This document shows positions 3,896 through 23,819 of a stretch of DNA of 64,000 bases, one piece after another (within the stretch, counting starts at the first letter, position 1; each line of letters starts with the position of its first letter). The position numbers were made by a program, and so were the translations under genes. The stretch covers positions 186,001 through 250,000 of the forward strand of contig JAHBVR010000006.1 of the NCBI GenBank assembly GCA_019637395.1, read 5' to 3'. This DNA comes from Vulcanimicrobiota bacterium (GTDB lineage: Bacteria; Vulcanimicrobiota; Xenobia; Xenobiales; JADMJV01). The notes under the pieces are model-generated. The model was given only the letters and a program-made list of their open reading frames with translations. It did not search any database and was not told the origin of the DNA.

Positions 3896-4932
3896 CGTTT
3901 GGCCATCGGCAGTGTGAATTCGACTCTGAGTCCGCCCAGCGGCGAAGCCGCCGCCCGGAGCTGGCCCTCGTGAGCCTGGGCGATGGCGTTACAAATCGAG
4001 AGCCCGAGCCCGGCTCCGCCCAGCTTTTTGCTGCGCGAGGGCTCCACCCGGAAAAATCGTTCAAAAAGCCTGTCCCTCATTTCCGCGGCTACGGCCGGAG
4101 GGGAATCGTCGAGCCGTATCCTCCAATGGGTGCCGGTATCCTGGCAACGCAACTCGACCCGGCCGGGAGCCTCGGTATAGCGCAGAGAGTTTTCCAGTAA
4201 ATTGGAGAGCAACTGGCGCAGCCGATCGGGATCGCCCCAGACGTGCGCCTGCAGTCGGGCCGTTTCCTGCACGACGGAGAGCTCCAGTCCGGCTTTGGCG
4301 TAACGGGACTGAAAAGGCTCGCTGGCCTCCTGGAGCAACTTCCACAGTTCCACTTCGCGCATCTTATAATTCAACTGGCCCAGATCGGCCCGGGCCAGTT
4401 GAAAGAGATCCTCGGTCAGGGCGGTCAGCGCCATCACCTGCCCGTGCAGCAACTCAAAAGCCTCCGCGTTGGCGGGACGCACTCCATCCTGCAGCGCCTC
4501 CACCTCGGCGCGCAGCACCGCCAGCGGGGTGCGCAGTTCGTGGGAAACATCAGCGATCCACTGCTTGCGGGACTCGTTGCCTCTTTCCAGAGTGTGGGCC
4601 AGATGATTGAAACGCCGGGCCAACTGGCCCAACTCATCGCCCGCCTCGACCGTAATGCGCGTCTGGTAGTCACCTCCGGCCAGTTTTTGGGTGCCGCGCA
4701 GCAGCCGCAAAAGAGGCCGGCGCAGGTGGGCCGATAGGGCGGCGGCCGTGATGGTGCTGAGAGCCAGAGCCATAGTTCCAATCAGAGCCGAGGTGCGCAT
4801 CTCAAGCCCCCGGCCCAAACTGAGCCGCAGGGTCGTCAGCATGACCAGGACCAGCACGGCGCAGGTCAAGAAGAGAGAAGCGAAGATTTTCTGGCCAATC
4901 GAGAGCTTCACTCCTGGAGGTGCGCTAAGCAT
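3892..4932 (-). CDS. Sensor histidine kinase with almost no extracytoplasmic sensor domain
   Basis: 346 residues from the ATG at 4932 that shares its A with the upstream stop (TGATG), with GGAGG 10 bases upstream; the 4965 start is less likely. Two membrane helices (about 17-34 and 47-67) are separated by only a dozen residues. A HAMP domain follows, then the phospho-acceptor motif D-V-S-H-E-L-R-T-P (His131) and a HATPase domain with L-L-E-N-S-L-R-Y and G-G-A-G-L-G-L-S-I. BaeS-type kinases are normally longer, with a sizeable periplasmic domain; here it is absent. Sensing is therefore probably within the membrane or via a partner, perhaps the transporter encoded immediately upstream. Partner of the downstream regulator. 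Confidence 0.93.
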   Translation of the reverse strand: MLSAPPGVKLSIGQKIFASLFLTCAVLVLVMLTTLRLSLGRGLEMRTSALIGTMALALSTITAAALSAHLRRPLLRLLRGTQKLAGGDYQTRITVEAGDELGQLARRFNHLAHTLERGNESRKQWIADVSHELRTPLAVLRAEVEALQDGVRPANAEAFELLHGQVMALTALTEDLFQLARADLGQLNYKMREVELWKLLQEASEPFQSRYAKAGLELSVVQETARLQAHVWGDPDRLRQLLSNLLENSLRYTEAPGRVELRCQDTGTHWRIRLDDSPPAVAAEMRDRLFERFFRVEPSRSKKLGGAGLGLSICNAIAQAHEGQLRAAASPLGGLRVEFTLPMAKR

Positions 4933-6941
4933 CAACAGGCGACCTCCTTCAGGTCCATACGCCAACCGGGAATGCCCTGGTCCGGCTGCAGACCTATGCC
5001 CTCTAAACGGGCCTGCAAACGTTGCCCAGGACGCTCCAATCCGAACTCCACCAGCCCGAGCCGGTCATCCAGGCAAGCCCAGGTTCGGGCCCGCCCGTGC
5101 TGGCCATGCTGCTCCCAACTGCTGTCCCGGCGGCTGCGCACGTAATGGCTGTGCAGGTTAGCCCGCCAGGGCAGGCCGCGGCTGAGCAGGCGAGCCGGCG
5201 GGCGGTCACTCCAACGACAGGCCGTCCCGTGCAGAGGAGTGATTCCCAGGGCCAGCACCAGCGCGTCCAACCAGGGGTCCGGCTGACCGCTGCGTTCATA
5301 GAAAGCGACCAGTTCCGGGGTTTCCCAGAAAGCCACTCGCGCTCCCCGATCGGAAGCCAGCCAGAACTGCCCGTTCAGATCGAGTTCCACTGTGAAAGTC
5401 CGCAGGTCGCCGGCACAGCGGTAAACCAACCGGCGGCCCACCGGCAGGTGCAGGTGCACCCCGGCCGGGTGGCTGGCGGCCCGCACGCGCTCACCCTCAC
5501 AGGGCCGGCAGTCCAACAAAAAGCAGTCGTCCTGAAACAGGTGGCTGAGGTGGAAGGGAAGCGTGGAAGCTCCCGGACGGGCGTCCGACTGAACATGCAC
5601 GTGCAGATGCGGCTGAGGAGAGCGTCCGCTGTTTCCACAGCGTCCCAGTAACTGGCCCAAAGCGACGGTTTGGCCCGGATGCACCTGCAAACTTCCCGAC
5701 TGCAGATGCGCCAGCACCACCACCGGCCCGCTGCTGGCCTGAATCATCACGTAGTTGCCCCAACGTTGCTGAATATTGACTTCACCCGGCGGATTGTCGG
5801 GACAGTCCGCCAGGCAGTCGAGTACCCGGCCGGCCAGGGGAGCAAGAATTTCCGCTCCCCAGCAATAGTAGTCGGACAACTGAGCGCCCTGGCCGGCGAA
5901 GCTGAGACCCTCGCGCTGCTGCACGAAATCGAGAGCGTAGCGCCACTGCTCCTGGTGGGTGTGAGGTCCGTCAAACCCCTGGTAGCAGGTCCATTCCCCA
6001 CGGAAGGGCAAGCGCAAGGCCAGACTGCTCGGGTCCAGACCGCGCGCCTGAGCCTGGGCACAGCGTTCCCAGCTACGCTCGGGCAAAGCCGGGGCCAGCA
6101 ATCTTTGAAAACGCCAGAAGCCGCCGGCACGCGGCCAGCAGGCCCACAAAAACAGCCAGGTGACCAGCACAAAGGGGATGGCCAGCGGAGGTAAGCCCAG
6201 AGGCGCCAACAGGCTGGTACAGGCCAGGTAGGTCAGACTGGAAGCGCCCGCCGCCAGCAATCCCAGCGTCAGGCTGGCGCGGCCCGGCGAAAGCCAGAGA
6301 CCGCTGAGCATCAGACAACTGAGCATGGCCTGAGTTCCGGCCAGAACCTGAGCGTAGGAATCCAAGGGCACGCCCAGGCAGGCCAGTAAAGCATAGGACA
6401 GGCCGAAAGAAAGAGCGCACAACAGCAGCAGATAAGGAGAGCCGAGGGCGATAGCCAGAGCCACCAGCAGACCACTGACCGGATTTGGCGCCAGGAAGAT
6501 TCCCCCCAGCGAACACAGGAAGGGATAACCGTGCTGAGGCGGGAGCGGCTGCAGCACCAGCAGCAAGGAGCGTCCCACCGACATCAAACCCAGCCCCACC
6601 AGCACGAAGGGCGCGCACAGAGGGCGCTGCAGTCGGGAGCGCAGCCAGGTGGTCAGCAACACGCAGGCCGGTCCGCCGGCCACGATCAGGCCCAGCAGCA
6701 CCAGGCCGGGCTGGTAGGTAGCCCCCAGCAAATGGCCCACCAGCAGCGCGTTGACCAGCTCCAGGGCGGGAGGAACCGGTTCCAGCGGCAGGCAACGGCG
6801 CGCCAGCCTGGCGCTGAGAGCGCAGATCCAGGCGGCGCAGCCGGGCAGGGGCTCGACCATGGTGGCGGCCAGCAGCAGCAGGGAGGGGAGCCAGCCCGGC
6901 AACATCAGGAAGGAGCCGTAGGCCGAGAGCAAAGTCTTCAT
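4932..6941 (-). CDS. Urea-transporter domain fused to an M23 metallopeptidase domain
   Basis: 669 residues from the ATG at 6941, which overlaps the preceding stop (TAATG). Residues about 1-280 are very hydrophobic and match the urea transporter (UT) family, including repeated S-G-L-L-V-A-L-type segments, a S-Y-A-Q-V-L stretch and L-A-I-P-F-V-L-V-T-W-L. The second half is a soluble lysostaphin-type M23 domain: H-T-H-Q-E-Q-W-R-Y-A-L-D-F supplies a zinc His and Asp, and P-Q-P-H-L-H-V-H-V-Q the H-x-H motif. A C-terminal region of about 180 residues has no fold I recognise. UT proteins are channels for urea or small amides; M23 enzymes cut peptide bridges, usually in peptidoglycan. Both motif sets look intact. 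Combined function unknown. Confidence 0.88.
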   Translation of the reverse strand: MKTLLSAYGSFLMLPGWLPSLLLLAATMVEPLPGCAAWICALSARLARRCLPLEPVPPALELVNALLVGHLLGATYQPGLVLLGLIVAGGPACVLLTTWLRSRLQRPLCAPFVLVGLGLMSVGRSLLLVLQPLPPQHGYPFLCSLGGIFLAPNPVSGLLVALAIALGSPYLLLLCALSFGLSYALLACLGVPLDSYAQVLAGTQAMLSCLMLSGLWLSPGRASLTLGLLAAGASSLTYLACTSLLAPLGLPPLAIPFVLVTWLFLWACWPRAGGFWRFQRLLAPALPERSWERCAQAQARGLDPSSLALRLPFRGEWTCYQGFDGPHTHQEQWRYALDFVQQREGLSFAGQGAQLSDYYCWGAEILAPLAGRVLDCLADCPDNPPGEVNIQQRWGNYVMIQASSGPVVVLAHLQSGSLQVHPGQTVALGQLLGRCGNSGRSPQPHLHVHVQSDARPGASTLPFHLSHLFQDDCFLLDCRPCEGERVRAASHPAGVHLHLPVGRRLVYRCAGDLRTFTVELDLNGQFWLASDRGARVAFWETPELVAFYERSGQPDPWLDALVLALGITPLHGTACRWSDRPPARLLSRGLPWRANLHSHYVRSRRDSSWEQHGQHGRARTWACLDDRLGLVEFGLERPGQRLQARLEGIGLQPDQGIPGWRMDLKEVAC

Positions 6942-8323
6942 TATCTCGTGACCGGGACACAACTGCGCAGGTGCTCAGGAAGCTCGTCCTGGGCGCACAT
7001 GACTTCCAGGTTCTCGGCCCGCCGAATCATCGACACGCAGCTATCTTCCTGAAGTAGAACGATGGCCGGACGATATTCGATAAACTGCAGCCATTGCGTG
7101 TTGTTGTAGGCGCCCACCGGACTGATGAGCAGGCGGTCGCCCTGGCGTAGCGGCGCGATCTGAAGGCTGCTCCTGACCACGTCAATGTTCATGCACAGGG
7201 GCCCGTAAAGCACCGTCTCCCGGGGCGGGCCCACGGGAGGACGGGTGAGTTTCACCTGATGGTTGTACCAAAAAGCGGTGAACAGCGTATTCACGCCGGC
7301 ATCGAGCACGGCCGCCCGGCGGCCGTCGGGCAACCGCTTGGTGCCGACCACGCTGGTGATGAGATGTTGGGCATCGTCCACGGTGGCCCGCCCCGACTCG
7401 AAAATCAGCCGCGGCAGGGGCTGGTTGCGGCGCACTCGGAATTCCATTCCCTGGTGCAGGGCATCCACCACCGCTCGAGCAAACTCCTCGGGCTGGGGAA
7501 CCGCCTGGGCCGGCGGTAAATAGACTCCCTGCAAGGCATTCCGCGAAGGCAGCCCACCACCAATATCCAGCGATTTGATACGCATCTCCCCGTCTTGCTC
7601 CAGCCAGGCTGCGAACTCGCACATCAGGCGCATTTGTTCGGCGTAAGCGCGGGGTTCCAGAATAAAAGTCCCGATATGCGAATGCAGCCCGGTCAGGCAC
7701 AGCTGGGGATTGAGTTCGATGCGCCGGGCCGCCTCGTGGGCTTCGCCGCTTTCTAGATGAAAACCAAAGCGGCTCCAAGGCTCACTGTAGCCGGTATTGA
7801 GATTCAATCGGAGGGTGACCGGCACGACCCGGCCCTGATCGCGGGCGATCGCCTCGATCGTGGAGAGTTCGTCCAGATGGTCCACGTGCAAATGCGCTCC
7901 TTCGCCAATGGCGCGCCGCAAAATCTCCGCACTTTTATTGGGCCCGTTGAAAAGGATCCGCTCGCCGGGAATACCGAGCCGGCGCGCTTTCTCGTATTCG
8001 AAGCGAGAAACCACTTCGGCCCAACAGCCTTCCTGGTGCAAAATATTGCAGATGGCGCTGGTATAGTTGGTCTTGTAAGACCAGCCGTGAACCACGTCGG
8101 AGTAGAGCGCCTGAAAGGCGCGGCGCAGCCGGCGCGCATTCTCGCGCAGACGTTTTTCGCTGGTCACGAACAGCGGCGAGCCAAATTCGGCCACCAGTTC
8201 CTCCAAATTGTGCCCTTCCAGCTGATCCTGATATTCGCCGCGCGGCGGGCGCAAGCCGAATTTATTGAGCGTTCCCAACTGGTGAGGCGACATGGACGGG
8301 GCTATCCAAGGCTTCTTGCTCAT
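6941..8323 (-). CDS. PLP-dependent fold-III decarboxylase (diaminopimelate/ornithine decarboxylase-like)
   Basis: 460 residues with an alanine-racemase-type barrel and the decarboxylase C-terminal domain. Visible landmarks: Lys84 in Y-K-T-N as the PLP Schiff-base lysine, H-S-H-I-G-T, the phosphate-binding L-D-I-G-G-G-L-P, E-S-G-R (E-P-G-R in diaminopimelate decarboxylase) and G-P-L-C-M-N-I-D-V carrying the catalytic-type cysteine. The sequence departs from ordinary LysA at the substrate-specificity motifs, so a dedicated biosynthetic role is more likely than lysine synthesis. Overlaps the ATP-grasp gene by 4 bases and the transporter gene by 1. Reaction probably removal of CO2 from an amino acid or amino-acid derivative; substrate unknown. 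Confidence 0.88.
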   Translation of the reverse strand: MSKKPWIAPSMSPHQLGTLNKFGLRPPRGEYQDQLEGHNLEELVAEFGSPLFVTSEKRLRENARRLRRAFQALYSDVVHGWSYKTNYTSAICNILHQEGCWAEVVSRFEYEKARRLGIPGERILFNGPNKSAEILRRAIGEGAHLHVDHLDELSTIEAIARDQGRVVPVTLRLNLNTGYSEPWSRFGFHLESGEAHEAARRIELNPQLCLTGLHSHIGTFILEPRAYAEQMRLMCEFAAWLEQDGEMRIKSLDIGGGLPSRNALQGVYLPPAQAVPQPEEFARAVVDALHQGMEFRVRRNQPLPRLIFESGRATVDDAQHLITSVVGTKRLPDGRRAAVLDAGVNTLFTAFWYNHQVKLTRPPVGPPRETVLYGPLCMNIDVVRSSLQIAPLRQGDRLLISPVGAYNNTQWLQFIEYRPAIVLLQEDSCVSMIRRAENLEVMCAQDELPEHLRSCVPVTR

Positions 8324-13229: not shown

Positions 13230-14585
13230 GTGAGGGCTAGCGGCCTTCGGCCACTCGCCCGAGTGGCCATGTTCGTCTTCAACAACCTGGATCACGACGC
13301 CCGCGTGCACCGCCAGGCCGAATCTTTGACGGCCGCCGGATTCTTGGTGCGCATCTTCGCCTTCTTCGACCCACCCTGTCGCGGCTTCGAGCGATTTCCG
13401 GCGGGCTACGAAGTCTGGCGCATGGATCACCGATCACAGTTCGATCGCGTTTGGAGTGAGTGGTTCCCTCGCCGGCGCCGAGAACTCTCGGTGGAAGGCG
13501 CCCCCCCGCTGCAGCTGCCGCCGTCGCGAACGCCCAGACGGCCATGCCCGCTCCCGCCAGCCCGTTCACTACCGCTGGAAAGCACTCCTCAGCAACGTGG
13601 CCATCGCGTTTTCCTGCGCCAGGTCAACCTGCGCTGGTGGCACGGGGCGCGCCCTTGGAAGCCCGACATCTGCATCGCCCATGATTTGGACGCTCTCTGG
13701 GCGGCCCAGGCCACCGCCCTCAGTTGCGGTTCGGCCCTGGTTTACGACAATCACGAAATCTGGAACGAGCAGCACTTTCTCAGCGATCGGGAAGAAATCG
13801 TCTTCTGGAATCAGTGGGAAGCTCGACTGGCCCCGTCGGTGGACGCCTGGGTGACGGTCAACCGCTCGCTGGCGGAGGTTTTGCGCCGGCGCTATGGCGT
13901 GGAGGCGCTGGCCGTGCACAACTGCCCACAACGGCGAAAACTGCGCCCGAAACTGCGCGGCTGCATGAAGGAGAGCTTTCAAGGGCGACCGGTGGCCATC
14001 TTTTCCGGTGGCTTTCATCTGGGTCGAGGCCTGGAGGAAATGGTAGCGGCCGCCCTGCTGCAAAAAGAGGTGGCCATCGTGCTCCAGGGTTTTGGCCCGC
14101 TGGAAGCGCCCCTGCGCCGCCTGGCCGAAGAGCAGCGCGCCCCGGTTCATTTTCTTCCCAAAGCTCCCTACCGGGAGCTGACCGACCTCTGCAGCCAGGC
14201 CGATATCGGCGTGATGCCGGTGTTGCCCGACTGCTTGAACAGTTACTATTGTTCGCCCAACAAGATGTTCGACTACATGATGGCCGGCTTGCCGGTGGTG
14301 GCCGCCGACCTGCCGGAAATGGCCGCGCTCGGCCACCAGTGCGGCAACACCGTTCTCTACGATGCCCATTCTCCTAACGATCTGGCCGAGAAGCTGGTGG
14401 ACCTGGCTCAGAGCCCACACTTGAGCGAAATGGCCCGGTCCTCACGGGAATGGGCGGAAACCACTTACAACTGGGAAAAAGAATGCGCCCGGCTGGTGGA
14501 CTTGCTCAGGCAGTTGGAGGAACGGCGGCGGGCTCGCCAATTGAACCCGAAGATCTGGGTGGATCCGCAAATCCCTCTCCTTTGA
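13230..14585 (+). CDS. Glycosyltransferase, GT4-like (GT-B fold)
   Basis: About 451 residues from a GTG at 13230; the family-like N-terminus V-A-M-F-V-F-N-N begins 12 residues later, so a start near 13257-13269 is equally possible. Landmarks: D-A-R-V-H-R-Q-A acceptor loop, H-D-L-D-A and D-N-H-E-I-W in the first Rossmann domain, F-S-G-G-F-H-L-G-R-G-L-E and S-P-N-K-M-F-D-Y-M-M-A-G-L-P-V-V in the second, the nucleotide-sugar site. A Pro/Arg-rich stretch (about 75-120) is atypical. Cytoplasmic sugar transfer, acceptor unknown. Its 3' end overlaps the convergent asparagine-synthetase gene by 80 bases. It might glycosylate a product of the adjacent locus, but nothing proves it. Confidence 0.82.
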   Translation: MRASGLRPLARVAMFVFNNLDHDARVHRQAESLTAAGFLVRIFAFFDPPCRGFERFPAGYEVWRMDHRSQFDRVWSEWFPRRRRELSVEGAPPLQLPPSRTPRRPCPLPPARSLPLESTPQQRGHRVFLRQVNLRWWHGARPWKPDICIAHDLDALWAAQATALSCGSALVYDNHEIWNEQHFLSDREEIVFWNQWEARLAPSVDAWVTVNRSLAEVLRRRYGVEALAVHNCPQRRKLRPKLRGCMKESFQGRPVAIFSGGFHLGRGLEEMVAAALLQKEVAIVLQGFGPLEAPLRRLAEEQRAPVHFLPKAPYRELTDLCSQADIGVMPVLPDCLNSYYCSPNKMFDYMMAGLPVVAADLPEMAALGHQCGNTVLYDAHSPNDLAEKLVDLAQSPHLSEMARSSREWAETTYNWEKECARLVDLLRQLEERRRARQLNPKIWVDPQIPLL

Positions 14586-16509
14586 GAAACAGCCTTTGCC
14601 ACTCCAAGACCGAGAGCACTCGCCAGATCTCCCAACTGTGGTCGGCACCCTGCTGGTGTTCGGCAAAGAGACGATCCAGCCGTTCAGCCTGGAACCACTC
14701 ACGGGCAGCCGCACTGTGGAGCAGATCGCCGACCCACTGCTTGAGCGGGCCGCGATACCAGTGGACGGCCGGCGTCGGATAGCCTTTTTTGTCACGGCGC
14801 AGAATGATTTCCGGCGGCGCCAGCCCGGCCACAGCCGTGCGCAGCACTCTTTTGGTCCAGCCCTGATGAATTTTATACTGGCTGGGCAGGGCGAAAGCGA
14901 ACTCCACCAGGCGGTAATCCAGGAACGGCGTGCGCGCTTCGATGGAGAAGGCCATGCTGTTGCGGTCTTCATAGCGCAAAAGTTGCGGAATGGATAAATG
15001 GGTCAGGTCCTGGGCCAGGCGGCGCGACAGGCGGTCGGGCCAGGCCCGGGCCGGGGTGCGGCTACGCTCGACGGCCGCCATCTGCCGGCGCAAACTTTCC
15101 TGTAGATAGGCCGGCGGCTTCCACGGATCGGGCCGGAGTTTTTCGGGCTTGCGCAAGAAGGCCGGCAACCGCGACTGCCAGCGAGCTTTGGAAGCCACTT
15201 TGGCGAAAGAACGCCCGGCCAGCTCCTCGCAGGCGGCCAGCTCGGACCTCTCCTGGTGCTGAAACGCCAGGTCCCAGACGTAGTCTTCCAGGTAGGGCAA
15301 ATAACCGGCAAAAACCTCATCGCCGCCCTGACCGTCGAGCAACACTTTGACCTGGTTGTGGGCCGACTGCATCACTTTCCACTGCGTGAAAAGGGTGGCG
15401 CTACCCGAAGGCTCATCCTGGGCCCAGCAAATCTTGGCCATGGCCGATACCAGCTCTTCCGGCTGCGGGATCACCCGGGTCGCCCGGGTCTTGCAACCCT
15501 CCACCACGGTCCGAATATAGTCTGACTCACTGCAGTCGGCCTCCGTATATTCGCTGGAAAAAGTGCGGATAGGCTGGCTGCTCAAGGCGGAGGCGATGGA
15601 GACGATGGAGCTGCTGTCCATTCCCCCGGAAAGACAGGTTCCCACCGGCACATCGGAGCGCAGGCGCAGGCGCACGGAATCTTGCAAGAGAGCACGCAAG
15701 GCTTCGGCGGCCGTATAAAAGGAAACATCGGAGTGAGGCGGCAGCTTGGGCTCGGCAAAGGTCAACGCCGGCACGGCCGGGGCCCCCTGCAGACGCACCG
15801 ACGCCAACTCCAGAGCCGCCTCGAAGTTGTGGCCGGGGGCCAGGGCCCAATACCGCTGGGTGCTCAATCCGCTGTTCCGGGCGATCCACAGATGATGGGC
15901 GGGTGCCAGCGGCTTGACGCCGGCGAAGAAGGTTTCCTCCTCATCGTCGCAGATGCTCTCCACCAGAAAGCGCCCAAGTGCCCGGGGATTCAGGCGGCGC
16001 AGGCCGGCATCGTCCCCCAGCAGAGCCTTGGGCTCGGAGGCAAAGCGGAATTCCGCTCCCACCTCGGCGTAGTAAAATGGCTTCACCCCAAAGCGGTCGC
16101 GGGCGCACCAGAGAACCTGCTTTTGCTCGTCCCAGAGCGCAAAAGCCCACATACCGTTGAAATGGCGCAGACAATCTCGCCCCCACTGCAGGTAGGCCCG
16201 CACCAGCACTTCACTGTCGCTTTCGGTGCGAAACTGGTGTCCCAGGCCTTCGAGCACAGCGCGAATTTCCAGATAGTTATAGATCTCGCCGTTGTAAATC
16301 AGCAGGCAGTGCTCGACGCGCATGGGCTGTTCCGAGCGCGCGTCCAGGTCAATGATGGAGAGCCGGCGATGCACCAGCCCCAGTCCGCCTTCCTGGTAGA
16401 TGCCCTGAGCGTCCGGACCACGATGAGCCAGCAGCCCGCCCATCCGTTCGAGGCGCTCGCGCTCGATGGCCTGACCCTGGGTATGAAAAACTCCCGCAAT
16501 TCCGCACAT
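14506..16509 (-). CDS. asnB: Asparagine synthetase-like amidotransferase (first of two)
   Basis: 667 residues, start M-C-G-I-A-G-V-F, so Cys2 is the free N-terminal nucleophile of the glutaminase domain (about 1-210; Y-N-G-E-I-Y-N-Y present). The synthetase domain has the PP-loop S-G-G-M-D-S-S-S and R-T-P-F-L-D-Y. It looks fully functional. AsnB enzymes move glutamine nitrogen onto an AMP-activated Asp carboxylate; homologues in peptide pathways act on other carboxylates. Last gene of a minus-strand run: repeat protein, radical SAM enzyme, cupin, this gene (7-base gap to the cupin). Position next to a putative precursor with ten Asp-Pro units suggests a tailoring role rather than housekeeping. 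Confidence 0.9.
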   Translation of the reverse strand: MCGIAGVFHTQGQAIERERLERMGGLLAHRGPDAQGIYQEGGLGLVHRRLSIIDLDARSEQPMRVEHCLLIYNGEIYNYLEIRAVLEGLGHQFRTESDSEVLVRAYLQWGRDCLRHFNGMWAFALWDEQKQVLWCARDRFGVKPFYYAEVGAEFRFASEPKALLGDDAGLRRLNPRALGRFLVESICDDEEETFFAGVKPLAPAHHLWIARNSGLSTQRYWALAPGHNFEAALELASVRLQGAPAVPALTFAEPKLPPHSDVSFYTAAEALRALLQDSVRLRLRSDVPVGTCLSGGMDSSSIVSIASALSSQPIRTFSSEYTEADCSESDYIRTVVEGCKTRATRVIPQPEELVSAMAKICWAQDEPSGSATLFTQWKVMQSAHNQVKVLLDGQGGDEVFAGYLPYLEDYVWDLAFQHQERSELAACEELAGRSFAKVASKARWQSRLPAFLRKPEKLRPDPWKPPAYLQESLRRQMAAVERSRTPARAWPDRLSRRLAQDLTHLSIPQLLRYEDRNSMAFSIEARTPFLDYRLVEFAFALPSQYKIHQGWTKRVLRTAVAGLAPPEIILRRDKKGYPTPAVHWYRGPLKQWVGDLLHSAAAREWFQAERLDRLFAEHQQGADHSWEIWRVLSVLEWQRLFLKGEGFADPPRSSGSIGEPAAVPPTA

Positions 16510-16516
16510 CTTGCTC

Positions 16517-16831
16517 TCAGGCCTTTATGATGAAGTAGCTCAACCACTCGGAGCCATCGTTGTGGAGTTCCAAACTGTGGCCCAAAGGCAATCTTATCAA
16601 GCTTCCCGGCATCAGGGCCCGCTGTTCGCCTTGAACCAGGGCGGTGCCTTGTCCCGAAGCAATCAAGACAAGCTCGGCGTAGTGCTCCTGGCGATGGGCG
16701 CCCACGCGACCACCCGGCTCCAGCCGGCAAAAAAGCGCCTCGCGGAACGGCGCCAGCGGCTGCTGCTGAAAGAGGTCCTCGATTTCCACCAACCCCTGGC
16801 CACCAAACAGATCGCTCTGTTTGAACTTCAC
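16517..16831 (-). CDS. Small cupin-domain protein
   Basis: 104 residues from a GTG at 16831 that overlaps the radical SAM stop (GTGA); a longer upstream start is possible but lies inside the maturase gene. Single cupin fold: the first motif reads G-A-H-R-Q-E-H-Y-A-E-L-V-L, where two His and one Glu could bind a metal, followed by G-Q-G-T-A-L-V and the second motif P-G-S-L-I-R-L-P-L-G-H-S. Cupins of this size serve as epimerases, isomerases, dioxygenases or binding proteins. Coupled to the maturase, so probably works on the same product. Confidence 0.8.
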   Translation of the reverse strand: MKFKQSDLFGGQGLVEIEDLFQQQPLAPFREALFCRLEPGGRVGAHRQEHYAELVLIASGQGTALVQGEQRALMPGSLIRLPLGHSLELHNDGSEWLSYFIIKA

Positions 16832-18144
16832 GGGATCTTGAGGGCAGGCTGGATGCGTTGCTGGTAGTCCAACTGCAAGCCGTCCAGGTCTGGCCCTTCC
16901 CAAGCCGGCCACCCTTCGGGCCAGTGGATGTCGGCGGCCGTCAGGCGGAGTTCGTCCCCCTCCGGCCAGGGCTGATCGCGCGATTCCTGGTGCAGATCGA
17001 AACAGCCGTTGTCAAAAGGCAGCCCCGAGGCCTTGCGCGCCAGCGTAACCCGCTCGCGCAGCCCGCGCGAGTCCATGGCCAGAGCTCGATGGTGGCAGTA
17101 CGGGTTGTTGCCGCGCCGGTCGAAGAAGACGTGCGAAGTCCAGTTACAGCCGGCCCGGCACAGCTTGGCGAACTGACACGTCCCACAAAAGCCCCACATG
17201 TGGGCCGTGCCTTCCTCGCTGCCTTCTTTAAGGTTGAAGGTCAGCTCCGGAGTGTTGACCAGAATGTCGCGCAACTTGCGCTCGCGGATATTGCCGCCCA
17301 CGTAGGCGCTGGTCGGCAGCGAGGGACAACCCTTGATGGCACCGTTAGCCTCGATACCCAGGGCCGAGAGGCCGGCCTGACAACCCTGCCAGATCAAGTC
17401 GCCCTGGGAGTTGCCCAGGTTGCGCAACAACACTTCAAAAGGACCGTAGTAGCCGATGTTGTTGCCGGCGTTGATGGCCACTCCTTCGTTGTAGGCGCGC
17501 TGGGCCACACGCGCCAGCATGGGGTAGATAACCATCAGCTCGGCGGGCTGCAGCAAAATGTTGGAGTTATCCGCGGCGTTGCCCATGGGCACGGTTAATT
17601 GCAATTGCCAGGCCTTCATGCCGGCATCGCGCAGGATCAGATAAAGCTCGGGAAAGTTGCGGGCCGAGAGTCGATTGATCTGGCTGTTACAGCCCACGGT
17701 AATGCCGGCCTCACCCAGCAAACGGATGGACTTGAGGCACTGCTGATAGGATCCGGGACGGCCGCGCAGTTTGTCGTGGACCGGTTCCAGACCATCCACC
17801 GATACCGAAACGGTGCCGATGCCGGCCTCTACCATCTTGGCGCAGGTGGCGGCCGAGAGGCCGAAACCTCCCGTGGTCATGGTCGGACGCATGCCGGCCG
17901 CCGTGATGGCCGCAGCAATCTCCAGCCAATCTCGGCGCAGGAAGGCTTCGCCACCGATGAGGGTGACCTCGGTAATGCCCGCTTCGGCCATCTGTTTCAC
18001 CAGATCCAGGCACTCGGCCGTGGTCAGCTCATCCTGGCGGGCATCCCCGGCCCGCGAGCCGCAATGGCTGCAGGCCAGGTTGCACTTCAGAGTGATCTCC
18101 CAGACCGCGTAGGCGTGGTGCCGGCGAACCCAGTTTTGCGTCAC
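16828..18144 (-). CDS. Radical SAM/SPASM peptide maturase
   Basis: 438 residues. The N-terminal radical SAM motif is C-N-L-A-C-S-H-C (Cys21, Cys25, Cys28), directly after W-E-I-T-L-K; G-G-E-A-F and S-V-S-V-D-G-L are the SAM-binding motifs. The C-terminal third has a SPASM-type cysteine set (G-C-Q, G-C-P-S-L, then G-F-C-G-T-C with L-C-R-A-G-C and a late Y-C-H-H) for auxiliary iron-sulfur clusters, typical of enzymes that modify ribosomal peptides. No leader-binding (RRE) domain precedes the barrel. GTG start, 3 bases after the repeat-protein stop, with no strong ribosome site, so translation is probably coupled to that gene at lower yield. Likely substrate: the repeat protein. Confidence 0.92.
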   Translation of the reverse strand: MTQNWVRRHHAYAVWEITLKCNLACSHCGSRAGDARQDELTTAECLDLVKQMAEAGITEVTLIGGEAFLRRDWLEIAAAITAAGMRPTMTTGGFGLSAATCAKMVEAGIGTVSVSVDGLEPVHDKLRGRPGSYQQCLKSIRLLGEAGITVGCNSQINRLSARNFPELYLILRDAGMKAWQLQLTVPMGNAADNSNILLQPAELMVIYPMLARVAQRAYNEGVAINAGNNIGYYGPFEVLLRNLGNSQGDLIWQGCQAGLSALGIEANGAIKGCPSLPTSAYVGGNIRERKLRDILVNTPELTFNLKEGSEEGTAHMWGFCGTCQFAKLCRAGCNWTSHVFFDRRGNNPYCHHRALAMDSRGLRERVTLARKASGLPFDNGCFDLHQESRDQPWPEGDELRLTAADIHWPEGWPAWEGPDLDGLQLDYQQRIQPALKIP

Positions 18145-18147
18145 AAG

Positions 18148-19029
18148 TTAACGATCGGGATTGAAGGCGACGCCATACAGAGGCTGGATAGGCGGATTCG
18201 GCTTGGGCTTTTTCGGGTCCAAGACCACACCGTACATCGGCTGCACGGGCGGCTCGGGCCGGGGCCGAGGATCGATGACCACGCCATACATCGGTTGAAT
18301 CGGTGGTTCCGGCTTGGGTCTGGGATCGATGACCACACCATACATTGGCTGGATGGGAGGCTCCGGCTTGGGTTTAGGATCGATGACCACCCCGTAAAGC
18401 GGCTGAATGGGCGGTTCCGGCCGAGGGGGACGGGGGCGCGGGTCGATGACCACACCATACATCGGCTGAATGGGCGGCTCCGGTCGGGGGCGCGGGTCGA
18501 TGACCACGCCGTACATCGGCTGAATCGGTGGTTCGGGGCGGGGACGCGGGTCGATGACCACCCCGTAAAGCGGCTGAATGGGCGGCTCGGGCCGGGGGCG
18601 CGGGTCGACGACCACCCCGTAGAGGGGCTGAACAGGCGGTTCCGGACGGGGGCGCGGATCGATGACCACCCCGTACATCGGCTGTACCACCGGGTCGGGA
18701 TTGGGATTGCGGGGTCTGCCCCAACCTCCGGTCACCGCTCCCCAGGCATCATCCAGGTGGGGGGTGCGTTGCTGGGGCTGCCAGCCGGCGCGCGGATAGA
18801 CCTGGTCCGGGTTACCGATGACGCCGCCCCAGTTCATTCCCAATTGACGGAAGGCCACCAGGCTTTCCCGGTAGACCCTGGCGGCGCCAGCCGGTCCCAG
18901 GTCGACCGGGCCGAAGGCCGGCTGGGCGGCGCTTTCCGCCTGAATGTCACCCGAAACGAAGCCTCGGGAATAAGCCGCGCCCGAAGGTGTAATGGGGCGG
19001 TTGGGATCAAAACCATTGGAGTATGCCAT
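18148..19029 (-). CDS. Tandem-repeat protein, likely multi-core precursor of the radical SAM enzyme
   Basis: 293 residues. Residues 1-113 form a non-repetitive leader-like region (G-F-V-S-G-D-I-Q-A-E-S, then A-A-R-V-Y-R-E-S-L-V-A-F-R-Q-L-G). From residue 114 to the end there are ten tandem units, mostly 18 residues: [PV]-[IV]-Q-P-[ML]-Y-G-V-V-[IV]-D-P followed by R-P-R-P-E-P or K-P-K-P-E-P. Unit 5 has three extra residues, unit 9 one, and unit 10 ends in Y-G-V-A-F-N-P-D-R. Tyr-Gly-Val is invariant; Asp is Asn only in the last unit. No signal peptide. The gene ends 3 bases before the maturase gene. Candidate modified residues are Tyr, Val and Asp. I infer a RiPP precursor; a structural proline-rich repeat protein is the alternative. 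Confidence 0.85.
   Translation of the reverse strand: MAYSNGFDPNRPITPSGAAYSRGFVSGDIQAESAAQPAFGPVDLGPAGAARVYRESLVAFRQLGMNWGGVIGNPDQVYPRAGWQPQQRTPHLDDAWGAVTGGWGRPRNPNPDPVVQPMYGVVIDPRPRPEPPVQPLYGVVVDPRPRPEPPIQPLYGVVIDPRPRPEPPIQPMYGVVIDPRPRPEPPIQPMYGVVIDPRPRPPRPEPPIQPLYGVVIDPKPKPEPPIQPMYGVVIDPRPKPEPPIQPMYGVVIDPRPRPEPPVQPMYGVVLDPKKPKPNPPIQPLYGVAFNPDR
18151..18690 (-). repeat. Ten tandem 54-bp coding repeats
   Basis: Direct repeats of about 54 bp, in frame, encoding the ten core-like units of the repeat protein (unit 5 is 63 bp, unit 9 is 57 bp, the last is cut short). Sequence differs between copies mainly at silent sites and at Met/Leu and Ile/Val codons, so the protein motif is held while the DNA drifts. 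That argues for selection on the peptide rather than very recent duplication. Confidence 0.9.
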
Positions 19030-19097: not shown

Positions 19098-19394
19098 GTG
19101 CCCTGCCTCGCGGAACGCTACGTCGTGCAAGAACTACTTTACTCTCTCAAAGTCCCCGCCAGTGGGGCCGGCCGGGCCGAACTCGCCGCTCTACTCGACG
19201 TCGATCCGAAAGCGCTACCCGAGCGGGTCCGCATCTCCACCCTCTCACCCCTGAGCAATCGCGGCTATTCGGCGGACGCTGAAGCCGAAGTGATCCGGCT
19301 CATGCCCGAGGGCCTGCTGATCGGCACCAGCACAGGCAAGGCCCCCCGCATGGTGGTGCCCTGGCAAAACCTGGCCTACCTCTCCGAGGAGTAA
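19098..19394 (+). CDS. Small unknown protein coupled to the dioxygenase
   Basis: Up to 98 residues from a GTG at 19098; AAAGGA is only two bases before it, so the true start may be later. First half helical (Y-V-V-Q-E-L-L-Y-S-L, R-A-E-L-A-A-L-L-D-V-D-P), second half strand-rich (E-V-I-R-L-M-P-E-G-L-L-I-G-T, M-V-V-P-W-Q-N-L-A-Y-L). No membrane segment, no family recognised. Its stop lies 3 bases before the likely dioxygenase start, so the two are cotranscribed. A helix-plus-strand protein of this size could be a leader-binding or carrier partner in the peptide locus, but there is no motif to show it. Confidence 0.6.
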   Translation: MPCLAERYVVQELLYSLKVPASGAGRAELAALLDVDPKALPERVRISTLSPLSNRGYSADAEAEVIRLMPEGLLIGTSTGKAPRMVVPWQNLAYLSEE

Positions 19395-19397
19395 GCA

Positions 19398-20159
19398 CTG
19401 CTCGATCTCGACGAACGCGTTCGCGTCTATGCAGGCGAGTTGGTGACCCACGGTTGTCCGGCTCATACCCTTGCCAAGGCGGTAGGCGAACAACTGAACC
19501 ACACCTTTGGCCCCGAACCGCGGGACTTTCAGGGCCCCGATTTTCTGGCGCGCCTGAATTCCTTACGCGCGGAACTGAGCGGCCCGAGCTGGCGTGAGCA
19601 GTGCCGGGACTTCCTGGAATCGCTGGGAATCCGCCTGGAAGAATTTGCCCTGGACCGCTTCCGTCTGCGCGGCCTGGCTCCCGGAGCCGACCAGATCCCG
19701 GCGGCGGCGGCGGCTTTCTACGCGCATCGCGATGTCTGGTATGCCAATCCGCAAGCTCAGATCAATTTGTGGATGCCTTTGCACGAGGTCAGCCGCCAGG
19801 ACAGCTTTGGCTTCTATCCCGACCTTTTTCAAACGCCCGTGGAAAATGACTCGGAGCAATTTGATTACGCGAAATTCCAATCCGAAGGCGGCTTTCAGAG
19901 CACGGTGCAGAGCCTGGTGCATCCGCGCTGGCTGGCGCCGGAGCAGCCGGAACCACCTTACGCGGTGGAGTTGCGACAGGGCGAACTGTTGCTCTTTTCG
20001 GCCGCCCATCTGCATCGCAGCCTGCCCAATCGCAGCGGGCGCATTCGTTTCAGCCTGGATATGCGTCTGGTGCATCGTGGCGATGCGGCCGCCGGGCGCG
20101 GCGCTCCCAACTGCGACAACCGCTCGCGCGGCAGCGTGTTGAGCGACTACGTTTGGTAG
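19398..20159 (+). CDS. Fe(II)/2-oxoglutarate dioxygenase-like protein (PhyH-type)
   Basis: 253 residues if it starts at the CTG at 19398, which has GGAG six bases upstream in the previous stop region; the first conventional in-frame start is TTG at 19440 (239 residues). The iron triad is visible (numbered from 19440): H-R-D with His96 and Asp98, and a late His at 190 or 192 in F-S-A-A-H-L-H-R-S, followed by R-I-R-F-S-L-D with an arginine that would hold 2-oxoglutarate. Such enzymes hydroxylate or desaturate unactivated carbons. Its place between the repeat protein and a second asparagine synthetase makes it a candidate tailoring oxygenase. It ends 13 bases inside the convergent synthetase gene. 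Confidence 0.8.
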   Translation: MLDLDERVRVYAGELVTHGCPAHTLAKAVGEQLNHTFGPEPRDFQGPDFLARLNSLRAELSGPSWREQCRDFLESLGIRLEEFALDRFRLRGLAPGADQIPAAAAAFYAHRDVWYANPQAQINLWMPLHEVSRQDSFGFYPDLFQTPVENDSEQFDYAKFQSEGGFQSTVQSLVHPRWLAPEQPEPPYAVELRQGELLLFSAAHLHRSLPNRSGRIRFSLDMRLVHRGDAAAGRGAPNCDNRSRGSVLSDYVW

Positions 20160-21973
20160 TAAAGATCGTACCAGATCTGAAAACAGAGCAGCGAGAGCAC
20201 CTTGTTGGCCAGGGCCGTGTTGCCGGCCGCGAACTCTTCCAAAATGCGCGTGACCTCTTGGGATCGAAAGAGGCCGTGGTGCTCCAGGTTGGCCGGGGAC
20301 AGGGTGGTGCGCGCGTACTCCAGCAGCCAGCCTGACAACCACTGATTGACCGGCATCACAAAGCCTTCTTTAGGACGATCGATGGCTTCGGCCGGAAGGT
20401 ACTTGCGAGCGGCCGTCTTGAGCACGCTTTTGACTTCCTGGCCGTGAATCTTGAAGCGCCCGGGAATGCGGGCGGCAAATTCCATGACTTCGGTGTCCAG
20501 GAAGCCGGTGCGAATCTCCAGGCTATGGGCCATGGAGAGGCGGTCGGCAAAGGCCAGCACTTGATCGGGTAATTGCGTGTTGAACTCGACCTCGAGCACC
20601 CGATTGAGTGGGTCCTGAGCGGTGCATTTGGCAAACAAATGACGCAGGTAATCGTTCGTGGAGTAGCTCTGCAAGCGTTCGGGTCGGTAGAGTTTGCGCT
20701 TATCTTCCTCAGTAAAGACGAAGAGCTGGCTGCGCCATTCCCAGTCGTGGGGCGAGGCCAGCCGGGCCAAAAACTCCGGCTGGTCCTGAAAATGGCCCAG
20801 GTCATCGGTTTTACCCCGGGCGAATTCAGCCAGCGGTCGAGCCAGACGGTGGCTCAGATACGATCCGAAGAGTTCATCGGCTCCGTCTCCGGAGATGGCC
20901 ACCTTCAAGTGCTTGACGATCAAGCGCGACAGAAAATAGGTGGACATCACTCCCCCAAAAGGCTCGTCGAAGTGGGTCAGGATGGCCGGCAGCTCCTCTT
21001 GAAAGCGCGAGAAATCCAGTTCTTCCTCGTAGTGCTCCGTATCATACTGTCTGGCGATCTGTCTGGCGCAAGCCAGGTCCAGCTCTTTGCCGGGAGTGCT
21101 CGAGTCGGCCCGGTAGCGCAGAGTGAAGGTTTTGACTTTGTGAGAGCTGGAACTGGCCGCCAGAGCGGTGGCCAGACTGGAGTCCAGGCCTCCGGAAAGA
21201 AAGAAGCCCACGGGCACATCGGCCAGCAGCCTTCGTTTTACGCCTCGTTGCAAACGCTGGAGCAGTTCCTCGGCCAATTCTTGCTCGTGCAGATCACCTT
21301 CCAGCGGGGTCCAGTCCAATTTCCAATAGGCTTCGAGGCGGCGGATGCGCCCGTCTTCCCAGATCAGTTGATGAGCGGGCTGCAGCATATGAATCCCCTC
21401 GAAAGCGCTCAGTGGTGCGGGCACGTTCTTGAGGGAAAGAAAATGATGAACGGCTTCCTCGTTCAATTTGCGCTGGAAGCCCGGGATTTGCAGCAGAGCC
21501 TTGATTTCCGAGGCGAACCAGAGGTGGCCTTGATGCAGGCAGTAATAGAGCGGTTTCTTGCCGGCCCGATCGCGGATGAGCAGGCCTCTCTTGTTGACTT
21601 TGTCCCAGACGGCCACGGCGAACATCCCGTGGATGGCCGTAGCCATGCGATCGCCGTGCAACTGATAAAGGTGGGGTAAAACTTCGGTATCGCTGCGGTT
21701 GCTGAACTGATGGCCCTGGCTTTGAAGCTGCTGGCGGAGTTCGGGGAAATTATAGATCTCGCCGTTCTGGCAGGCCCAGACGCTCTGATCCGGCGTGCTT
21801 AAAGGCTGTCGCCCGCCGGCCAGGTCGATGATCGAGAGACGCCGGGCGCCCAGGGTAAAATCCTCGCCGGCCACGCAATGCTGATCGTCCGGTCCGCGAT
21901 GAGCCAGCACCCGCAACATCCTGTCGACCACCTCGGGAGCGCGCGCCCCGAAAACCCCGGCAATTCCACACAT
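20147..21973 (-). CDS. asnB: Asparagine synthetase-like amidotransferase (second of two)
   Basis: 608 residues from the ATG at 21973 giving M-C-G-I-A-G-V-F, which puts the nucleophile at Cys2; the longer reading from 22180 would bury this cysteine and is rejected. Glutaminase motifs (H-R-G-P-D-D, N-G-E-I-Y-N), PP-loop S-G-G-L-D-S-S and R-T-G-F-L-D are intact. It differs clearly from the first AsnB in length and sequence, so this is not a recent duplication. Two AsnB-type enzymes within 8 kb, flanking a repeat protein and its maturase, are more than housekeeping asparagine synthesis needs. Confidence 0.9.
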   Translation of the reverse strand: MCGIAGVFGARAPEVVDRMLRVLAHRGPDDQHCVAGEDFTLGARRLSIIDLAGGRQPLSTPDQSVWACQNGEIYNFPELRQQLQSQGHQFSNRSDTEVLPHLYQLHGDRMATAIHGMFAVAVWDKVNKRGLLIRDRAGKKPLYYCLHQGHLWFASEIKALLQIPGFQRKLNEEAVHHFLSLKNVPAPLSAFEGIHMLQPAHQLIWEDGRIRRLEAYWKLDWTPLEGDLHEQELAEELLQRLQRGVKRRLLADVPVGFFLSGGLDSSLATALAASSSSHKVKTFTLRYRADSSTPGKELDLACARQIARQYDTEHYEEELDFSRFQEELPAILTHFDEPFGGVMSTYFLSRLIVKHLKVAISGDGADELFGSYLSHRLARPLAEFARGKTDDLGHFQDQPEFLARLASPHDWEWRSQLFVFTEEDKRKLYRPERLQSYSTNDYLRHLFAKCTAQDPLNRVLEVEFNTQLPDQVLAFADRLSMAHSLEIRTGFLDTEVMEFAARIPGRFKIHGQEVKSVLKTAARKYLPAEAIDRPKEGFVMPVNQWLSGWLLEYARTTLSPANLEHHGLFRSQEVTRILEEFAAGNTALANKVLSLLCFQIWYDLYYQT

Positions 21974-22049
21974 GGGGTGGGGCTTATCACGCCGGTCGCC
22001 TGGAAACCTGCCGGCAGGTGGCCCGCCAAGGTGGGCTAACTCACAGGCC

Positions 22050-23819
22050 ATGCTGGACTTACAGGGACAGATCGATGGCCTGGGCGAGGGAGAGGCTTTG
22101 GAACTGCCCTCCGGCCAGTTAGAACTGACCGCTCCCCTGATATTACGCCGAGCCATCCAGTTGCGCGGCTCGGCCACCACTTTGCTCCTTCGCCAGGGGC
22201 GTGAAGCGGTAGTGCGCCTGCAAGGGGCGGGACCCTTTCACCTCAAGGGATTACGCCTGATCTACCTGGGTGAAGGTCCGGCTCGGGGCATCTGGGCCGA
22301 GAGCGGTGAACTGCACGTGGAGGACTGCCATATCAGCGGGGCGCGCTGGGTGGATGACCGTGGACTGGGCTGCGCCATCCACTTTTCTCACGAGTCGCGG
22401 GGGAGCGTAACTTTTTGCGAGCTTTTCAACAACGACCTGGGCCTGCTGGTCGATCACCAGAGCCAGGTTCGACTGGAGTCGAACCGATGTTATGATAACC
22501 GCCTGGCGGGAATGCGCATGCAGGGCTACAGCCGAGCCCGGATCAGTCAGAACGAGTGCCGGGCCAACGGCCGGGCGGGAATCTCCGTGTTGGGCCAGGC
22601 CTGGGCGGAGCTGGAAGGAAACCGTTGTCACAACAACGGCACTCACGGTATCCATCTGGCAGGCCAGAGCCAGTCTCGTTGCCTGGGCAACGAAGTCAGC
22701 CAGAATCCTCATCACGGCTTGAGCATCGAAGAACAGGCCTGGGCCAGCCTGGAGCAGCAGGTCTGTGAGGACAACGGCCTGTGCGGCCTGGACATCGGCG
22801 GGGAATCCAAGGTCCTGGCCAGCGCCAACTACTGCACGCAGAATGCCTGGCATGGAATTCAGGTGCGCGACTCGGCCTGGCCCATGCTCTGGCAGAATCG
22901 TTGCCGACACAATCAACACTCGGGAATTGCTTATTACGGAAAGTCGGGGGGCTGTGCCAAGGACGGCTGGCTGGAAGAGAACGAGCAGTATGCGGTGCAG
23001 GTCTCCGATCAGGCAGCCCCCGCCCTGAACAATAATCGTTGCTCGCGCAATGGCCTCTCTGGGCTGGCTTATTTTGACCAGTCCGGCGGCCGGGCTCAAA
23101 GCAATCAGTGCACTCATCATCCCTACCATGGCATCCAGGTGAGCGATCAGGCTCAGCCCATGCTGGAGCAAAATAGTTGTCAGAACAATCAGCTTTTCGG
23201 GCTGGCTTGTTTTGGGGATTCCAAAGCTCTGGTGCGGCACAACTACTGCCAGCAGAACTCCCAGGGTGGTTTCTACGTGGGCGATCAGGCGGAACCCCAA
23301 CTTTGGGAAAACCAGGCCACCGACAATGGCGGCTGCGGCCTGCAGGTGGTGGGACGGAGCGGCGGTCTGCTGGCCGAGAACCACCTGGCCAACAACGGTT
23401 CTTACGGCATCCAAATCGGGCCGGAGGCGGCCCCCTGGCTTTCGGCCAACTCGGTTCAGGGACACACTTTGAGTGACTACTCGTGTTTAAGTCCTGAGGC
23501 AGTCTTGCTGGAAAAAGCGCGCGCCCAGGGAAAAAGGCTGGCCGAAGGGCATCATTTGCAGTTGCAGGATGGCGACGGTAAGGCTGTGACCGTGGTCTTG
23601 CCTTTCGAACCCAAGCCGGCCGAAAAGCTGGTGCTGGAAGCGCTGGCCCGCCACTCCAAGCTGTCGGAAGCGGAACTGAGCAAAATCGCCGGGACGCGCC
23701 GCATCTCCGGTTTGCTCGAATCGCTGCAAGAGAAACTGAACCGGGCCGGATTGCAACTGCTACAAAATCAGGGGCAGGGCAGCGAAGGCGCCATCTATGC
23801 TTTTCTTCCGGTCAGGTGA
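22050..23819 (+). CDS. Right-handed parallel beta-helix protein (NosD-like) with C-terminal helical domain
   Basis: 589 residues from the ATG at 22050; an upstream in-frame start at 21972 would overlap the divergent gene. Residues about 60-500 are beta-helix coils of roughly 23 residues with the pattern N-x-C-x-x-N-x-x-x-G-I-x-V-x-D-Q-A, the asparagine and cysteine stacking ladder of NosD/pectate-lyase-like helices. A distinct helical C-terminus (about 530-589; L-S-E-A-E-L-S-K-I-A-G-T-R-R-I-S-G-L-L) looks like a winged-helix or small binding domain. No signal peptide. Such helices bind or cut long polymers or repetitive ligands. Divergent from the second asparagine synthetase (75-base gap). 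Function unknown. Confidence 0.8.
   Translation: MLDLQGQIDGLGEGEALELPSGQLELTAPLILRRAIQLRGSATTLLLRQGREAVVRLQGAGPFHLKGLRLIYLGEGPARGIWAESGELHVEDCHISGARWVDDRGLGCAIHFSHESRGSVTFCELFNNDLGLLVDHQSQVRLESNRCYDNRLAGMRMQGYSRARISQNECRANGRAGISVLGQAWAELEGNRCHNNGTHGIHLAGQSQSRCLGNEVSQNPHHGLSIEEQAWASLEQQVCEDNGLCGLDIGGESKVLASANYCTQNAWHGIQVRDSAWPMLWQNRCRHNQHSGIAYYGKSGGCAKDGWLEENEQYAVQVSDQAAPALNNNRCSRNGLSGLAYFDQSGGRAQSNQCTHHPYHGIQVSDQAQPMLEQNSCQNNQLFGLACFGDSKALVRHNYCQQNSQGGFYVGDQAEPQLWENQATDNGGCGLQVVGRSGGLLAENHLANNGSYGIQIGPEAAPWLSANSVQGHTLSDYSCLSPEAVLLEKARAQGKRLAEGHHLQLQDGDGKAVTVVLPFEPKPAEKLVLEALARHSKLSEAELSKIAGTRRISGLLESLQEKLNRAGLQLLQNQGQGSEGAIYAFLPVR

Follow-up and report, generated by a model that had tools for sequence, protein, structure and literature searches.

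The window analyzed was a stretch of 64,000 nucleotides from a 7.66 Mb assembly, to which Candidatus Eremiobacterota (now Vulcanimicrobiota) are the closest relatives that bear a name; positions are those of the window. A predicted substrate (precursor) protein of 293 aa is encoded at 18148..19029 (-); it has no Cys, a pI of ∼9 and no Pfam or NCBIfam match. The gene of a 438 aa PlpX-like radical SAM/SPASM enzyme (rSAM; predicted splicease, assigned by TIGR04103 and tree) lies at 16828..18144 (-), has a GTG start and begins 3 nt after the substrate stop codon, as the initial annotation had described. A small cupin of 104 aa is encoded at 16517..16831 (-). Its previously proposed overlap with the rSAM gene was retained as a 4-nt GTGA overlap; the start at 16912, which gave an overlap of 85 nt, was replaced by the GTG at 16831, where the conserved homologues begin with MKF. 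An 89-aa protein is encoded divergently from these three genes at 19125..19394 (+). This gene was listed as 98 aa from 19098, and its start was set at GTG 19125 by comparison with a sister species, in which an in-frame stop precedes this codon.

All ten QP[ML]YGV units described earlier were located within the last 183 residues of the substrate, with QP[ML]YGV invariant, and the orthologues in two congeneric species (genomes G138 and G136) have the same arrangement with ten units each. The motif tyrosines are residues 119, 137, 155, 173, 191, 212, 230, 248, 266 and 285, and these are all the tyrosines of the repeat part. The corresponding predicted splice sites, all (-), are MYG at 18670..18678, LYG at 18616..18624 and 18562..18570, MYG at 18508..18516 and 18454..18462, LYG at 18391..18399, MYG at 18337..18345, 18283..18291 and 18229..18237, and LYG at 18172..18180, the last within a C-terminal variant unit, ...LYGVAFNPDR. 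In 20,000 composition-preserving shuffles of the same protein [ML]YG occurred 0.07 times on average and at most 4 times, compared with the 10 observed. Units end in Asp-Pro (9 of 10) or, in the last, Asn-Pro, and most linkers read (R/K)P(R/K)PEPP, apart from small variations. These linkers had been proposed as cut points, for which nothing tested gave support. The DNA array has a period of 54 with a match of only ∼78%, and most of the changes from one unit to another are synonymous (pN/pS ∼0.18); it is therefore the protein sequence that is conserved.

The N-terminal region of the substrate (aa 1-110; 18700..19029, (-)) is conserved in three species and contains YPR[AS]GW. No Nif11 or nitrile-hydratase-like (NHLP) leader was found on the protein by Pfam and NCBIfam search, no secretion signal was recognized by eye and no substrate-like sequences were found in plasmids. 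The AlphaFold2 model, from a 3-sequence alignment, had a mean pLDDT of 39, consistent with a disordered chain and otherwise uninformative. Predicted disorder and the high proline content (60 of the 183 residues of the repeat part) would also suit a structural Pro-rich linker or surface protein next to which the rSAM gene lies incidentally. This explanation is very unlikely, given the 3-nt spacing, the persistence in three species of a substrate-rSAM pair that occupies two distinct genomic positions, and the pairing of rSAM genes with unrelated repeat proteins at paralogous loci.

The residue preceding Tyr-Gly is Met or Leu in 30/30 units of the three species (21 M, 9 L). PlpXY naturally splices at MYG and LYG, with a reported loss of C8H9NO (PMC10533398, PMC11002830). 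Splice tags such as PIRPLYGLPI have been used, the published form of the tag being PIRP[LG]YGLPI (PMC10533398), and the window unit PIQP[ML]YGVVI closely resembles it. PlpXY is reported to work without a leader (PMC10533398), and several splice events per precursor are possible (PMC10373908). The initial annotation had assigned the core motif to no described class; as judged from its sequence, the core is the known X-Tyr-Gly splice motif and not that of an unknown RiPP class. Cross-linking with a loss of 2 Da per unit had also been anticipated. Because the motif and its flanks match known splice sites, up to ten losses of 135.07 Da by tyramine excision are predicted and favored here instead. 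We consider it probable that the window rSAM splices tyramine from several of the ten motifs.

The window rSAM contains a CX3CX2C motif and seven SPASM Cys, all of which are invariant across 21 homologues. Its best NCBIfam model was TIGR04103, which we take to correspond to IPR026482, the family of PlpX; the score of 667 bits is below the cut-off of 725 bits, which was reached by none of the Vulcanimicrobiota enzymes. The score against TIGR03913 (GDL maturase) was 396 bits and likewise below its cut-off (592 bits). In two maximum-likelihood trees the enzyme clustered, with support of 97/100 and 99/98, with a TIGR04103 member from Nostoc, which stood for the family in place of PlpX. This Nostoc sp. 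C057 enzyme (plasmid p057_G, WP_179076315.1) scores 853 bits against TIGR04103, is annotated as nif11-class maturase 3 and is 63% identical to the window rSAM. Upstream of its gene is a Nif11 precursor ending ...GSIALYGLPPELF (ALYGLPPELF), and downstream is a 71-aa gene, called PlpY-like by position and size and matched by no family model. A nine-residue stretch of this PlpY-like protein, containing LLPRSGW, resembles YPR[AS]GW of the substrate N-terminal region (YPRAGW in the window), a short resemblance that is at most suggestive. Among viral contigs, only distant rSAM fragments (23-38% identity) were related to the Nostoc enzyme.

An X-Tyr-Gly protein is encoded directly upstream of the rSAM in 8/8 loci of the window enzyme clade, namely the window, its orthologues in G138 and G136, the paralogous loci C27 and C25, the C25 orthologue in G138, a locus in G134 and Nostoc. 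C27, from the same genome as the window, has five VYG motifs in AQPVYGAPMP units; C25 and its G138 orthologue have VYGGP/VYGAP motifs on a stalk predicted to be lipoprotein- or membrane-anchored, and the G134 motif is PVYGGPP. Some of the X-Tyr-Gly proteins hold one to three motifs and not a long array. The proposed pairing of a multi-site substrate with a SPASM maturase was well supported by the three species that share the cassette, by the paired paralogues and by the eight loci of the clade. The initial annotation had held that a maturase found widely without a repeat protein would refute its reading. The loci gave no such refutation, as every one examined in the enzyme's own clade has an X-Tyr-Gly protein.

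The substrate of C25 and its relatives starts with EPLLPRKSWKDPQAL. Because BLASTP (E 3e-5) shows this start to be similar to QPLLPRSGWQDEQAF in the PlpY-like protein from Nostoc, a PlpY-like segment appears to be fused to the substrate in these loci. Substrates with an apparent N-terminal PlpY-like fusion, a membrane/lipobox segment and VYG motifs were located at L044 8569-8949 and L045 5649-6437; in L044 only a same-frame TGA separates the substrate from the downstream rSAM frame.

A different reaction at the same Tyr-Gly sites, by an enzyme that branched from the PlpX family and altered its chemistry, was considered: a Tyr cross-link (-2 Da per unit), epimerization or decarboxylation. Radical SAM/SPASM relatives catalyze many reactions, the window enzyme is ∼60% identical to its nearest curated member and falls under the cut-off of that family, and its cassette partners, the 89-aa protein and the cupin, differ. 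The motif and flanks nevertheless closely match a published splice site, including the restriction to Met and Leu, and X-Tyr-Gly substrates adjoin enzymes both inside and outside the sub-clade, so that such a change of chemistry is improbable. A thioether of the sactipeptide or ranthipeptide type requires a core Cys, and the absence of Cys from the precursor argues against this chemistry.

The 89-aa gene, substrate, rSAM and cupin co-occur in three species of one genus. In both G136 and G137 the genes flanking the window cassette are direct neighbors, separated by no more than ∼150 bp, and the G136 cassette sits on another contig near two subtilase genes. Since the cassette lies elsewhere in G136 and its flanks are contiguous without it, the four genes move as a unit. 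The flanking asparagine-synthetase-like gene (14506-16509) and PhyH-like gene (19440-20159) were rejected as pathway members, being contiguous with each other without the cassette in G137 and G136. No conserved protease or transporter gene was found with the cassette. In G136 (contig C69) two subtilisin-family (S8) peptidase genes at L041 2202-5365 lie ∼2 kb from the relocated cassette, a possible protease context for a ketoamide inhibitor.

The 89-aa protein was found in 3/147 genomes of the phylum, the same three that carry the cassette, and a 44% relative is encoded directly behind the rSAM paralogue C27 in the same genome. Its predicted structure (pLDDT 77) gave no significant match in the PDB, and assignment to a known leader-binding domain was rejected since the predicted fold matches none there. 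No convincing match to a stand-alone PlpY homologue was found in the relatives. As a PlpY-like adaptor the 89-aa protein is the strongest candidate, and it may do the job of PlpY by acting on either substrate or enzyme. The cupin, which travels with the cassette and has His46, His50 and Glu53 invariant in three species, may serve a later or regulatory step.

A second Vulcanimicrobiota rSAM clade, about 31-36% identical to the window enzyme, adjoins unrelated MYG[VI] repeat proteins. These contain 4 units in G144, 4 in G012, 10 in G145, 8 in G148 and 4 in G014; repeat number ranges from 4 to 10 with a constant motif, and one unit of the G012 array reads PIRPMYGVFPD. A further, truncated MYG[VI] array in G010, of at least 4 units, lies at a contig end without its enzyme. 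Neighboring enzyme clades at similar distance are without such repeat proteins. Judged by these arrays, putative multi-site substrates recur in Vulcanimicrobiota across two divergent enzyme clades. In G145 and G148 a 739-740-aa protein with two radical SAM CX3CX2C motifs, a tandem fused double rSAM, is encoded between the MYG array and the rSAM gene (L114 7300-9519, G145:C76; L115 2160-4382, G148:C55).

The closest described system is the PlpXY splicease of Pleurocapsa sp. PCC 7319 (PlpX, WP_019503880.1) and its spliceotides (Morinaka et al., 2018, as described in PMC11002830 and PMC10533398), the family of PlpX being given as IPR026482 (PMC11002830). Shared with PlpXY are an rSAM/SPASM enzyme whose best match puts it in the same family, a M/L-Tyr-Gly target with similar flanks, adjoining enzyme and substrate genes and the possibility of several sites per substrate. 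The window substrate differs in having no Nif11/nitrile-hydratase-like leader and ten sites in a Pro-rich disordered repeat protein, and the locus, from a little-studied phylum, the Vulcanimicrobiota, has no recognizable PlpY and adds the cupin and the 89-aa protein. The Nostoc TIGR04103 system likewise encodes its precursor upstream, and has an LYG close to the C-terminal end of the precursor and an enzyme of 63% identity, but its precursor is a single-site Nif11 peptide whereas the window substrate has ten sites; its enzyme is above the family cut-off (853 bits) and the window enzyme below (667 bits), and it has an adjoining 71-aa PlpY-like gene.

The TIGR03913 GDL-motif maturases with DUF1843 precursors (Azospirillum, Aureibacter and some Vulcanimicrobiota) form the sister clade of the window enzyme. 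Their small precursors carry LYG/PYG near the N terminus. Identity to the window enzyme is however ∼43%, the TIGR03913 enzyme is longer and its precursors are short, with a single motif and no repeats; no DUF1843 was found in the window precursor with Pfam or NCBIfam. In DUF1843/GDL precursors at L060 4983-5743, L065 4164-4769 and L058 7699-7869, LYG, PYG or PMYM was located near the N terminus, suggesting that the whole sister maturase family may act on Tyr-Gly-like sites. The ocean Eremiobacterota RiPPs (PMC9259500) were rejected as the same system, the two pathways characterized there, phospeptin and pythonamide, being other chemistries. The chemistry is known. The ten-site leaderless array and its cassette are absent from the descriptions compared here and are considered new with moderate certainty; the principal survey of this class, by Scott et al. 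2022 (Chem 8:2659), lay outside the comparison, and an earlier account of multi-site repeat substrates is possible.

In the mechanism that we infer, the PlpX-type radical SAM/SPASM splicease, aided by the 89-aa protein, would act on the leaderless Pro-rich substrate at its ten X-Tyr-Gly motifs, removing tyramine (-135.07 Da) at each of up to ten sites; full occupancy would give -1350.68 Da. Maturation would yield a long, disordered and basic chain with up to ten backbone ketoamides, bearing Met or Leu side chains at the position that a protease would read as P1. Potent protease inhibition has been described for spliced products (PMC10373908). Because ketoamides would stand at P1-like Met and Leu and this is the activity of the class, inhibition of serine or cysteine proteases is suggested, and the presence of so many sites in a single chain points to a multivalent trap. 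By this analogy, the most likely role of the spliced protein would be that of a multivalent protease inhibitor or trap.

The main functional alternative, compatible with splicing and in our estimate rather unlikely, is a covalent scaffold, in which the ten backbone ketones would bind amines or cross-link partner proteins or cell-surface material. A disordered basic chain that carries ten regularly spaced sites and shows no obvious sites for excision would fit such a scaffold, as would the predicted membrane- or lipid-anchored stalk that bears the motifs at a paralogous locus, and protein-borne ketoamides are reactive towards suitable reagents (PMC10533398). The window protein, however, has no secretion signal recognizable by eye, and protease inhibition is the activity that has been published for this class (PMC10373908).

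On a broader scale, we tentatively propose, as a possibility held at less than even confidence, that Vulcanimicrobiota use tyramine splicing to make whole 'polyketoamide' proteins and not small peptides. At least two enzyme lineages are paired with 4-10-site repeat proteins; their disordered chains, with many electrophilic backbone ketones, would act as covalent multivalent traps or scaffolds and would be served by dedicated partners (the 89-aa protein, the cupin and the substrate-fused PlpY). If the ten sites are spliced, nature would make long proteins with many beta-amino acids besides small peptides. Spliceases are utilized to install reactive ketones at short tags within proteins, and more processive enzymes are wanted (PMC10533398). 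A natural enzyme that works on ten sites of a single leaderless chain would be a direct candidate for a processive splicease.

Elsewhere in the window, one open frame at 4932-6962 (-) combines matches to a urea transporter (PF03253) and to an M23 peptidase (PF01551), which is an unusual fusion. The product of 21972-23819 (+) is a parallel beta-helix protein (NosD/Beta_helix) that contains several repeats and is conserved throughout the genus.
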